Origin: Pythium myriotylum
Lineage: Eukaryota; Oomycota; Peronosporomycetes; Pythiales; Pythiaceae
Assembly (NCBI GenBank): GCA_023091665.1
Contig: JALJCQ010000009.1
Span: 1,984,001-2,048,000 of the forward strand
Direction of reading: 5' to 3'
Length of the DNA stretch: 64,000 nt
This document shows positions 1 through 51,890 of this stretch, in pieces (position 1 is the stretch's first letter; every line of letters starts with the position of its first letter). The translations under genes were made by a program, and so were the position numbers. The notes under the pieces were generated by a model, which saw only the letters and a program-made list of their open reading frames with translations, was not told where the DNA came from and made no database searches.

Positions 1-607
1 TCTCTGCGTGTGTGAGTTGGTGTGTTGGTGTGTGTGTCCCCTCATGTCGGTGAGCTCCCCCGTCGTAAACTTGCCTGTTGGTGTAGGGGAGGAAGAAGTG
101 CAGGTGGCGTGGGAAGACGCGTCGCAGTGGGGGTTGACATCGTGGGAGGAGAGGGAGGGAAAGAGAGAGGGAAGGGGCGAGTGCGCCAAGGAGGACGGCT
201 GCCCTTGTCGGTGCCTTCTCGCCGTACGCATCACCGTGCCCTCGCCTAACCTCGTGGGTTCGATGTGGAGTGACATCGTCCCTGGACGACCGGCCCCGCC
301 CACACGGCTGGCTGGGTCGGTTGCGAAACTCTTCGTTCCTGGCTGCGCTGGTATGCGGGTGCTGTTCCCGCCACCTGTGTGTGTGTGTGTGTGTGTGTGT
401 GTGTGTGTGTGTGTGTGTGTGTGTGTATGTGTGTGTGTGTGTGTGTTGGTTCGTACTCGTGGGTTGTGGAGGTCGCGAGGGGTGGTGTCGGTGGCCTGGT
501 GTTGATGTATAGGTTGTGTATGTTCATTTTACTCGTGAGTTGGTTGCGCGCGCGGCGTGTATAGTGCGAGTATGCGATTGTGTGGGCGGTAAGTATCGTT
601 TTGAAGC

Positions 608-679
608 AGCACTTTGGCGCAGAGGAAGCGTGTTGGGCTCATAACCCAAAGGTCGTTGGATCGAGACCAACAAGTGCTA
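608..679 (+). tRNA. Initiator tRNA-Met (CAT), array copy 1
   Basis: This cytoplasmic initiator would deliver Met to the start codon. The cloverleaf is perfect: acceptor AGCACTT/AAGTGCT, D stem GCGC/GCGT with loop AGAGGAA, anticodon stem TTGGG/CCCAA with loop CTCATAA, variable AGGTC, T stem GTTGG/CCAAC with loop ATCGAGA, discriminator A, no intron and no encoded CCA. Hallmarks of a eukaryotic initiator rather than an elongator are the A1:T72 pair, GGG/CCC next to the anticodon loop, and A54 and A60 in the T-loop (no TTC). T33 rather than C33 is the non-animal form. The A-box (TGGCGCAGAGG) and B-box (GGATCGAGACC) lie inside the gene. A Pol III terminator TTTT lies at 683-686. A weak TATA-like TGTATAG lies at 558-564. 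The next gene starts 928 bp on. Confidence 0.96.
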
Positions 680-682
680 TTC

Positions 683-686
683 TTTT
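683..686 (+). terminator. RNA polymerase III T-run terminator of array copy 1
   Basis: TTTT begins four bases after the discriminator base (context CTATTCTTTTGC). The same run follows every tRNA copy at the same spacing, which supports separate Pol III transcription of each gene. Confidence 0.8.
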
Positions 687-1535
687 GCAAAACACACCGC
701 GTCCGTCAATGGCGGGATGCACGGACACACGGACACCAACACTCGTCCATTCTCTTTGCTGTTGCTATCGACAGCGCTGGGGCGATGTCGTCTCACGTGG
801 ACCTCGCGGCACGCACTCGTCGCGGTGGACGTCGTCGTTTGTCTCGGATACGACTGTCGCAGCGGCAGTGGCAACGACTCTGGCGACATTTTGCTCTCTC
901 TCTCTCTCTCTCTCTCTCTCTCTCTCTCTCTCTCTCTCTGCGTGTGTGAGTTGGTGTGTTGGTGTGTGTGTCCCCTCATGTCGGTGAGCTCCCCCGTCGT
1001 AAACTTGCCTGTTGGTGTAGGGGAGGAAGAAGTGCAGGTGGCGTGGGAAGACGCGTCGCAGTGGGGGTTGACATCGTGGGAGGAGAGGGAGGGAAAGAGA
1101 GAGGGAAGGGGCGAGTGCGCCAAGGAGGACGGCTGCCCTTGTCGGTGCCTTCTCGCCGTACGCATCACCGTGCCCTCGCCTAACCTCGTGGGTTCGATGT
1201 GGAGTGACATCGTCCCTGGACGACCGGCCCCGCCCACACGGCTGGCTGGGTCGGTTGCGAAACTCTTCGTTCCTGGCTGCGCTGGTATGCGGGTGCTGTT
1301 CCCGCCACCTGTGTGTGTGTGTGTGTGTGTGTGTGTGTGTGTGTGTGTGTGTATGTGTGTGTGTGTGTGTGTGTTGGTTCGTACTCGTGGGTTGTGGAGG
1401 TCGCGAGGGGTGGTGTCGGTGGCCTGGTGTTGATGTATAGGTTGTGTATGTTCATTTTACTCGTGAGTTGGTTGCGCGCGCGGCGTGTATAGTGCGAGTA
1501 TGCGATTGTGTGGGCGGTAAGTATCGTTTTGAAGC

Positions 1536-1607
1536 AGCACTTTGGCGCAGAGGAAGCGTGTTGGGCTCATAACCCAAAGGTCGTTGGATCGAGACCAACA
1601 AGTGCTA
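1536..1607 (+). tRNA. Initiator tRNA-Met (CAT), array copy 2
   Basis: Same sequence as copy 1. The next gene is 2,089 bp away because the following spacer holds the LTR-like insertion at 2,213-3,417. The (CT)n tract after this copy is short. Confidence 0.95.
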
Positions 1608-2212
1608 TTCTTTTGCAAAACACACCGCGTCCGTCAATGGCGGGATGCACGGACACACGGACACCAACACTCGTCCATTCTCTTTGCTGTTGCTATCGAC
1701 AGCGCTGGGGCGATGTCGTCTCACGTGGACCTCGCGGCACGCACTCGTCGCGGTGGACGTCGTCGTTTGTCTCGGATACGACTGTCGCAGCGGCAGTGGC
1801 AACGACTCTGGCGACATTTTGCTCTCTCTCTCTCTCTCTCTCTCTCTGCGTGTGTGAGTTGGTGTGTTGGTGTGTGTGTGTCCCCTCATGTCGGTGAGCT
1901 CCCCCGTCGTAAACTTGCCTGTTGGTGTAGGGGAGGAAGAAGTGCAGGTGGCGTGGGAAGACGCGTCGCAGTGGGGGTTGACATCGTGGGAGGAGAGGGA
2001 GGGAAAGAGAGAGGGAAGGGGCGAGTGCGCCAAGGAGGACGGCTGCCCTTGTCGGTGCCTTCTCGCCGTACGCATCACCGTGCCCTCGCCTAACCTCGTG
2101 GGTTCGATGTGGAGTGACATCGTCCCTGGACGACCGGCCCCGCCCACACGGCTGGCTGGGTCGGTTGCGAAACTCTTCGTTCCTGGCTGCGCTGGTATGC
2201 GGGTGCTGTTCC

Positions 2213-49210: not shown

Positions 49211-49282
49211 AGCACTTTGGCGCAGAGGAAGCGTGTTGGGCTCATAACCCAAAGGTCGTTGGATCGAGACCAACAAGTGCTA
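49211..49282 (+). tRNA. Initiator tRNA-Met (CAT), array copy 51
   Basis: Same sequence as copy 1. The following (TG) tract has 63 repeats (49,917-50,042). Next gene 994 bp on. Confidence 0.95.
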
Positions 49283-50204
49283 TTCTTTTGCAAAACACAC
49301 CGCGTCCGTCAATGGCGGGATGCACGGACACACGGACACCAACACTCGTCCATTCTCTTTGCTGTTGCTATCGACAGCGCTGGGGCGATGTCGTCTCACG
49401 TGGACCTCGCGGCACGCACTCGTCGCGGTGGACGTCGTCGTTTGTCTCGGATACGACTGTCGCAGCGGCAGTGGCAACGACTCTGGCGACATTTTGCTCT
49501 CTCTCTCTCTCTCTCTCTCTCTCTCTCTCTCTCTCTCTCTCTCTGCGTGTGTGAGTTGGTGTGTTGGTGTGTGTGTGTCCCCTCATGTCGGTGAGCTCCC
49601 CCGTCGTAAACTTGCCTGTTGGTGTAGGGGAGGAAGAAGTGCAGGTGGCGTGGGAAGACGCGTCGCAGTGGGGGTTGACATCGTGGGAGGAGAGGGAGGG
49701 AAAGAGAGAGGGAAGGGGCGAGTGCGCCAAGGAGGACGGCTGCCCTTGTCGGTGCCTTCTCGCCGTACGCATCACCGTGCCCTCGCCTAACCTCGTGGGT
49801 TCGATGTGGAGTGACATCGTCCCTGGACGACCGGCCCCGCCCACACGGCTGGCTGGGTCGGTTGCGAAACTCTTCGTTCCTGGCTGCGCTGGTATGCGGG
49901 TGCTGTTCCCGCCACCTGTGTGTGTGTGTGTGTGTGTGTGTGTGTGTGTGTGTGTGTGTGTGTGTGTGTGTGTGTGTGTGTGTGTGTGTGTGTGTGTGTG
50001 TGTGTGTGTGTGTGTGTGTGTGTGTGTGTGTGTGTGTGTGTGTTGGTTCGTACTCGTGGGTTGTGGAGGTCGCGAGGGGTGGTGTCGGTGGCCTGGTGTT
50101 GATGTATAGGTCGTGTATGTTCATTTTACTCGTGAGTTGGTTGCGCGCGCGGCGTGTATAGTGCGAGTATGCGATTGTGTGGGCGGTAAGTATCGTTTTG
50201 AAGC

Positions 50205-50276
50205 AGCACTTTGGCGCAGAGGAAGCGTGTTGGGCTCATAACCCAAAGGTCGTTGGATCGAGACCAACAAGTGCTA
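50205..50276 (+). tRNA. Initiator tRNA-Met (CAT), array copy 52
   Basis: Same sequence as copy 1. The GATATC allele follows at 50,813. Next gene 944 bp on. Confidence 0.95.
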
Positions 50277-51148
50277 TTCTTTTGCAAAACACACCGCGTC
50301 CGTCAATGGCGGGATGCACGGACACACGGACACCAACACTCGTCCATTCTCTTTGCTGTTGCTATCGACAGCGCTGGGGCGATGTCGTCTCACGTGGACC
50401 TCGCGGCACGCACTCGTCGCGGTGGACGTCGTCGTTTGTCTCGGATACGACTGTCGCAGCGGCAGTGGCAACGACTCTGGCGACATTTTGCTCTCTCTCT
50501 CTCTCTCTCTCTCTCTCTCTCTCTCTCTCTCTCTCTCTCTCTGCGTGTGTGAGTTGGTGTGTTGGTGTGTGTGTGTCCCCTCATGTCGGTGAGCTCCCCC
50601 GTCGTAAACTTGCCTGTTGGTGTAGGGGAGGAAGAAGTGCAGGTGGCGTGGGAAGACGCGTCGCAGTGGGGGTTGACATCGTGGGAGGAGAGGGAGGGAA
50701 AGAGAGAGGGAAGGGGCGAGTGCGCCAAGGAGGACGGCTGCCCTTGTCGGTGCCTTCTCGCCGTACGCATCACCGTGCCCTCGCCTAACCTCGTGGGTTC
50801 GATGTGGAGTGATATCGTCCCTGGACGACCGGCCCCGCCCACACGGCTGGCTGGGTCGGTTGCGAAACTCTTCGTTCCTGGCTGCGCTGGTATGCGGGTG
50901 CTGTTCCCGCCACCTGTGTGTGTGTGTGTGTGTGTGTGTGTGTGTGTGTGTGTGTGTGTGTGTGTGTGTGTGTGTGTGTGTGTGTGTTGGTTCGTACTCG
51001 TGGGTTGTGGAGGTCGCGAGGGGTGGTGTCGGTGGCCTGGTGTTGATGTATAGGTCGTGTATGTTCATTTTACTCGTGAGTTGGTTGCGCGCGCGGCGTG
51101 TATAGTGCGAGTATGCGATTGTGTGGGCGGTAAGTATCGTTTTGAAGC

Positions 51149-51220
51149 AGCACTTTGGCGCAGAGGAAGCGTGTTGGGCTCATAACCCAAAGGTCGTTGG
51201 ATCGAGACCAACAAGTGCTA
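51149..51220 (+). tRNA. Initiator tRNA-Met (CAT), array copy 53 (last)
   Basis: Same sequence as copy 1. Its spacer has two private changes (GGCGAGC at about 51,507 and TTCGACG at 51,721) and stops at 51,890, about 135 bp before the place where a copy 54 would begin. Confidence 0.95.
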
Positions 51221-51890
51221 TTCTTTTGCAAAACACACCGCGTCCGTCAATGGCGGGATGCACGGACACACGGACACCAACACTCGTCCATTCTCTTTGC
51301 TGTTGCTATCGACAGCGCTGGGGCGATGTCGTCTCACGTGGACCTCGCGGCACGCACTCGTCGCGGTGGACGTCGTCGTTTGTCTCGGATACGACTGTCG
51401 CAGCGGCAGTGGCAACGACTCTGGCGACATTTTGCTCTCTCTCTCTCTCTCTCTCTCTCTGCGTGTGTGAGTTGGTGTGTTGGTGTGTGTGTGTCCCCTC
51501 ATGTCGGCGAGCTCCCCCGTCGTAAACTTGCCTGTTGGTGTAGGGGAGGAAGAAGTGCAGGTGGCGTGGGAAGACGCGTCGCAGTGGGGGTTGACATCGT
51601 GGGAGGAGAGGGAGGGAAAGAGAGAGGGAAGGGGCGAGTGCGCCAAGGAGGACGGCTGCCCTTGTCGGTGCCTTCTCGCCGTACGCATCACCGTGCCCTC
51701 GCCTAACCTCGTGGGTTCGACGTGGAGTGACATCGTCCCTGGACGACCGGCCCCGCCCACACGGCTGGCTGGGTCGGTTGCGAAACTCTTCGTTCCTGGC
51801 TGCGCTGGTATGCGGGTGCTGTTCCCGCCACCTGTGTGTGTGTGTGTGTGTGTGTGTGTGTGTGTGTTGGTTCGTACTCGTGGGTTGTGG

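Follow-up and report, generated by a model that had tools for sequence, protein, structure and literature searches.

Why would a genome hold dozens of nearly identical initiator transfer RNA (tRNA) genes in one long row, and what would keep them there? The question is raised by a 64,000-nucleotide (nt) stretch of Pythium myriotylum DNA, hereafter the window, which corresponds to positions 1984001-2048000 of contig JALJCQ010000009.1 (C9, 3.5 Mb) in a 58.7-Mb assembly of 55 contigs (GCA_023091665.1). Most of the window is taken up by a tandem array with one initiator tRNA-Met gene per unit, and C9 was analysed from 1890001 to 2068000 to include the flanks. The array is very probably the initiator-tRNA locus of this genome, built from tandem, near-identical units of ~0.92 kb that each carry one RNA polymerase III (Pol III) gene, an organisation previously described in oomycetes.

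A tandem array of initiator tRNA genes

The array and the genes and tracts referred to below are, in window coordinates:

1..51890, + strand: tandem array of ~0.92-kb units with one initiator tRNA-Met gene each (ARAGORN, Rfam), continuing left to C9:1961711
608..679, + strand: first initiator tRNA-Met (CAT) gene of the window (ARAGORN, Rfam)
51149-51220, + strand: last initiator tRNA-Met gene of the window (ARAGORN, Rfam)
29684..29754, + strand: variant tRNA gene lacking one anticodon-loop C, giving a six-base loop (Rfam, 49.4 bits)
36233..36303, + strand: second copy of this deletion allele, seven units from the 29684 copy (ARAGORN, Rfam)
42781..42852, + strand: tRNA gene with a single G-to-A change in the D-loop GG (Rfam, 59.2 bits)
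376..446, + strand: example of a (TG)n tract, 24-130 nt long over the 69 units of the full array
894..939, + strand: example of a (CT)n tract, 24-94 nt long over the 69 units

By ARAGORN, the window contains 53 tRNA genes, which span 608 to 51220 and all lie on the + strand; 51 were called CAT and two have a damaged anticodon loop. The Rfam tRNA model RF00005, applied to the window, returned the identical set, with scores of 49.4-61.7 bits where the gathering cut-off is 29. Fifty of the 53 are identical letter for letter, and the deletion allele at 29684 and 36233 is probably non-functional, judging from its shortened loop. With the left flank included, the array comprises 69 genes over 73.5 kb (C9:1961711-2035220), of which 65 lie on the + strand and 4, at the far left end, on the - strand. 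Across this full array 65 of 69 genes are letter-identical; the remaining four are the two copies of the deletion allele and two genes with single changes. The array is surrounded by other sequence on both sides within its contig. On the right, the repeat stops partway through a unit at C9:2035890 (window 51890), against a Ty3/Gypsy element.

Fifty of the 52 spacings between window genes measure 866-996 nt, with a median of 924 nt, and the two outlying spacings (2089 and 2091 nt) each contain a 1,205-nt insert. Every unit has one (CT)n and one (TG)n tract, both of variable length. The original prediction, made from the letters of the window, had described a single-isotype array of at least 53 initiator genes with microsatellite tracts in each unit, running off the left edge and ending at 51890; count, tRNA fold, composition, leftward continuation and end point were all borne out. 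Its picture of near-identical one-gene units of ~0.9 kb holds for the genes and for the spacing, but no two of the 69 units are alike once tract lengths are counted, and two in the window carry the insert.

Initiator identity and confinement to one locus

Eukaryotic initiator tRNA-Met is marked by A1:U72, A54, A60, three G:C pairs at the anticodon loop and the absence of base 17. By eye, the sequence shared by the 65 identical copies has a CAT anticodon, A1:U72, A54 and A60, lacks base 17, and closes its anticodon loop with three G:C pairs (GGG/CCC). By these generally known marks and the tRNA model, the array genes are predicted eukaryotic initiator tRNA-Met genes, in agreement with the identity first proposed. 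Chance or misannotation as the source of the tRNA calls is ruled out: the two programs concur on 53 of 53 genes, and the reversed-pattern controls of the searches below gave no match.

Two patterns were used to search the whole assembly for initiator genes, each with a reversed control. The first, which allowed up to 3 mismatches and by design leaves the two deletion alleles outside, gave 67 matches; the second, a looser eukaryotic-initiator pattern, gave 66. All lie inside the array, and both controls gave 0. A first-look genome search listed 69 candidates, equal to the number of units, and the 40 that were scored are all on C9. No second initiator locus was found in the 58.7-Mb assembly by the two sequence patterns, and by this measure the initiator tRNA-Met family appears confined to a single locus on one contig, which is not proven to be a chromosome.

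Other isotypes are arrayed as well. An elongator tRNA-Met array lies at C13:1584184-1643575 (38 strict matches, control 0, commonest spacing 1,023 nt), and ARAGORN reads tRNA-Met at all three of the loci scanned there. The two Met arrays of this genome are, as read from their sequences, one initiator and one elongator array. A Trp-Thr-Ser tRNA array lies at C11:1613667-1713623 and a Lys(TTT) array at C12:818578-864635, with 6 kb read in each. A lone tRNA-Arg (CCT) at C8:1167318, with no other tRNA in the next 6 kb, shows that some tRNA genes are not arrayed. In a genome-wide tRNA family search that scored 63 of 3,081 first-look candidates, matches on contig C2 recur at intervals of 72,126 bases on both strands, a pattern that would suit an organelle genome, perhaps mitochondrial, assembled as a concatemer with inverted repeats.

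Variation and homogenisation among units

Outside the tracts, the mean pairwise divergence of the 69 units is 0.17% and 20 haplotypes are present; when tract lengths are included, all 69 are distinct. Neighbour resemblance was tested on 8 spacer sites and the tract features, with the units in un-inverted order (see below) and 10,000 shuffles. Adjacent units share states beyond the shuffles at six of the eight sites (matched or exceeded by 0 to 233 of the 10,000 shuffles), in a TA interruption (23/10,000) and in TG length (51/10,000). Units 0-4 at the left edge have sites B78 and B283 in common, and these also occur singly in units 14 and 68. Seven complete copies of the 1,205-nt insert occur in the full array, at the same site in each unit, and they are 100% identical. 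A higher-order repeat of ~20 units, hinted at by the two window units that carry the insert, found no support in the tract lengths and sites inspected at that offset.

The resemblance of neighbours, the homogeneous spacers and the identical inserts fit repeated unequal exchange or conversion. Units would multiply and homogenise through unequal exchange and gene conversion, and selection would keep enough intact copies to supply initiator tRNA while tolerating damaged ones, with the exact copy number largely a by-product of recombination.

Several points weigh against this account. Neighbour resemblance is non-significant at A104 (3809/10,000), at B294 (846/10,000) and in CT length (1338/10,000). 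The tRNA has 3 variable columns out of 72, the near flank 4 out of 376 and the far spacer 9 out of 366, with a 2-nt indel counted as two; on this count the genes are no more conserved than the spacers, and purifying selection on single copies does not show. Pairwise diversity is lower in the tRNA, at 0.08% vs 0.17%. The copy number of 69 is that of the assembly, and the activity of the array as initiator supply is predicted from sequence.

The same data leave room for a neutral satellite, in which recombination would have multiplied the unit well past any requirement, leaving most copies silent or redundant. Four of the 69 copies persist with changes inside the tRNA, one of these changes being present twice, and the spacers vary about as little as the genes. 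In Phytophthora infestans, the tRNA section of PMC9584435 gives only a modest correlation (R = 0.41) between codon use and the number of tRNA genes. Yet 65 of the 69 genes are intact and share one sequence, and the two patterns turned up no initiator gene elsewhere, so that at least part of the array would have to work. A neutral satellite is a possible but less probable explanation than an array retained as the initiator-tRNA locus.

LTR inserts and an inverted left end

The insert belongs to a long terminal repeat (LTR) family and is present twice in the window:

2213..3417, + strand: solo LTR with a secondary insertion near LTR positions 716-1061, inside one unit
21650..22854, + strand: second window copy of the 1,205-nt LTR insert, 20 units beyond the first

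The family is scattered along contigs, and on other contigs its copies pair ~10.7-13 kb apart. This rules out the insert as a tRNA-linked mobile element. The array also has two LTR pieces, broken at LTR position 871 and located at C9:1960227-1961097 (-) and C9:1971697-1972031 (+), each joined to a piece of the same Ty1/Copia family. The left piece is joined to 267 nt of Copia reverse transcriptase, itself joined further left to other repeat sequence, and the right piece to ~1.1 kb of Copia sequence. The two 30-nt junction ends directly adjoin in six further Copia copies elsewhere in the region, and one LTR base is common to both halves of the rearrangement, which is reciprocal. The left end of the array fits a two-break inversion of C9:1960227-1971696 between a solo LTR of the array and a Ty1/Copia copy. 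Undoing the inversion on paper would give an array that runs in one direction throughout and has LTR-bearing units next to one another at its left edge.

A candidate centromere beside the array

The Copia copies involved belong to a ~50-kb Ty1/Copia cluster (C9:1922457-1971696) that adjoins the array on the left. Copia gag, integrase and reverse transcriptase domains were detected here. An exact Copia 140-mer has 296 matches in the genome; the 100 listed fall on eight contigs in one cluster each, and the five on C9 all lie at 1936.6-1971.7 kb. An exact 30-mer has 394 matches, of which the 100 listed fall on five contigs, again in one cluster each. Clusters among the listed 30-mer and 140-mer matches are at most 202 kb wide. 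In a Copia family search, 40 of 549 candidates were scored, on 16 contigs; among these 40, all nine contigs with two or more full-length matches have them in one span. In contrast, the LTR family of the array insert is scattered along contigs. The cluster also contains an exact 4,702-nt duplicate (C9:1945927-1950628 and 1954533-1959234) with a second Copia-type element in it.

In Phytophthora sojae and P. agathidicida, clusters of the Copia family CoLT mark centromeres, as stated in the portions consulted of PMC7082073 and PMC9667082. Given this precedent and the single cluster per contig among the matches listed, the array adjoins a candidate centromere, with the Copia of P. myriotylum likened to CoLT by its clustering. 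The idea of a Pol III or chromatin domain, put forward in the original prediction, would thereby gain a position.

One may then ask whether the array also helps to form the border of the centromere on its chromosome, where dense binding of Pol III and TFIIIC would limit the spread of centromeric or pericentric heterochromatin in the manner of fission yeast tRNA genes. The ~50-kb cluster at C9:1922-1972 kb abuts the array, and ordinary genes restart ~8 kb to the right of it. However, the array lies on one side of the cluster only, and no tRNA gene was found in the seven stretches covering C9:1890001-1960000. The elongator-Met array on C13 and the Lys array on C12 are ~0.7 Mb and ~1.6 Mb, respectively, from the clusters of their own contigs, and no C11 copy is among the Copia matches listed; tRNA arrays are thus not generally at clusters. 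The chance of one array landing this near is ~4%, and four arrays were looked at. A border function is considered unlikely. A general occurrence of tRNA arrays at centromere edges was unsupported in a weak test: eight 10-kb stretches beside four other Copia clusters, of which five matched Copia to the far end, two had ~3 kb unmatched there and one clearly left the cluster, gave one tRNA, namely the lone tRNA-Arg, 3.3 kb outside the C8 cluster.

The most far-reaching form of the idea is that the only initiator-tRNA locus is built into the centromere edge, as a Pol III array of 74 kb that adjoins CENP-A chromatin, acts as a barrier protecting neighbouring genes and exchanges DNA with centromeric Copia. 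The left inversion, with one break in the array and one in Copia, would be an instance of such exchange; the proposal as a whole is an improbable one.

Integrity of the assembled array

A false expansion or a chimeric junction could also produce a long array that stops abruptly inside a Gypsy element, and repeats of this kind assemble unreliably, with counts that vary between assemblies, as noted for P. infestans in the tRNA section of PMC9584435. Against this, all 69 units are distinct once tract lengths are counted, the array is flanked on either side by other sequence within a single 3.5-Mb contig, and the left rearrangement is reciprocal, with one LTR base common to both halves. An assembly artefact is therefore considered quite unlikely.

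The right flank and retroelement primer sites

To the right of the array, the following features were identified:

51891..57692, - strand: Ty3/Gypsy element cut by the right edge of the array, integrase end toward the array
about 57361-57692, - strand: 5' LTR of the Gypsy element, by eye
57348..57358, - strand: Gypsy primer site, 11 nt complementary to the 3' end of initiator tRNA (with CCA)
60257..62767, - strand: importin-7-like gene (main open frame), the nearest ordinary gene on this side

LTR elements often use initiator tRNA as their primer. An 18-nt primer site, the complement of the initiator tRNA 3' end with CCA, has 26 exact and dispersed matches in the genome, and its reversed control has none. 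Six matches were examined, with five different sequences upstream that would be LTR ends. A fragment of a retroelement, lying at C9:1969857 between the array's two arms, matches the primer site over at least 12 nt.

The suggestion that the array is kept to supply primers to LTR retroelements has a basis in the sequence (26 matches, six examined, the 11-nt match of the right-edge Gypsy and the fragment at C9:1969857). It is rejected as the cause of the array and is very unlikely: initiator tRNA commonly primes LTR elements, adaptation of the elements to a reliable host tRNA would suffice, other isotypes are also arrayed, and there is no sign that the host retains copies for the benefit of the elements.

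The importin-7-like protein shows, over 98% of the query, 82% identity to its match in Pythium oligandrum and 74% to that in P. insidiosum; the top-scoring sequence, at 92%, is from a jgi source. Among the best 120 of 173 matches, eight that carry an organism name exceed 60% identity, and all are from oomycetes. This level of identity points to a host on the Pythium side of the oomycetes. Between the Gypsy element and this gene lie two adjacent perfect hairpins (window 59782-59857 and 59857-59927, with arms of 34 and 35 nt) and a tandem duplicate of a 46-nt unit (59547-59638, 97% matches).

Relation to known tRNA arrays

The tandem tRNA repeats of Xenopus include initiator Met in a multi-gene unit of ~3.2 kb. 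These and the arrays of Entamoeba had been named as the parallels of an exceptional array, a view that is not supported, because single-gene tandem arrays have been published for P. infestans and other tRNA arrays occur in the present genome. According to the tRNA section of the P. infestans study, 7,519 tRNA genes lie on its chromosomes, ~64% of them in single-gene arrays, and about two-thirds of tRNA families are on one chromosome, with support from read depth (PMC9584435). The likeness is close: monomeric, near-identical tandem arrays, mostly one chromosome per family, with variants grouped, often near one edge. The C9 array repeats one gene through 69 units at 0.17% divergence, and its variants are likewise grouped, including at the left edge. 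That species also has a trimer array of Thr-Trp-Ser and two tRNA-Met arrays, on Chr8 and Chr12, that have diverged from each other; the Trp-Thr-Ser (C11), initiator (C9) and elongator (C13) arrays correspond to these here. By analogy, this suggests that of the two tRNA-Met arrays in P. infestans one is initiator and the other elongator.

Other systems are more distant. Entamoeba (PMC2652664, as far as consulted) shares tandem arrays with short tandem repeats, in E. histolytica and E. dispar, and a homogenisation put down to concerted evolution. That lineage is unrelated, and there a unit holds up to five tRNA genes plus complex repeats, nearly every tRNA gene is arrayed and the arrays exceed 10% of the genome, whereas the units described here have one tRNA and simple CT and TG tracts. 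The human tRNA variable number tandem repeat at 1q23.3 is also a long tRNA-bearing repeat with a proposed boundary role, but the consulted part of PMC4041453 gives units of 7.3 kb that combine tRNA genes with a CTCF site and are repeated 9-43 times, with variation in copy number. The tRNA barrier at a fission yeast centromere is Pol III-dependent and, in the account consulted, was tested by experiment (PMC2040200), while the array on C9 is known by position alone.

This kind of array is therefore already published for Phytophthora; what is new is its end-to-end description, the rearrangement at its edge, the neighbouring candidate centromere and a single initiator locus as judged by two patterns. 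The tRNA section of the P. infestans study describes no split of the Met arrays into initiator and elongator, no inverted end and no array at a centromere, and the present case comes from the Pythium side. Neither an initiator-specific array nor a tRNA array at an oomycete centromere appeared among the titles and abstract openings listed in the literature searches.

Tandem tRNA arrays are now shown on the Pythium side of the oomycetes. A single-locus initiator supply beside a candidate centromere raises the question of whether the length of the array sets the dose of initiator tRNA, and, for the oomycetes more broadly, whether tRNA arrays may border their centromeres.

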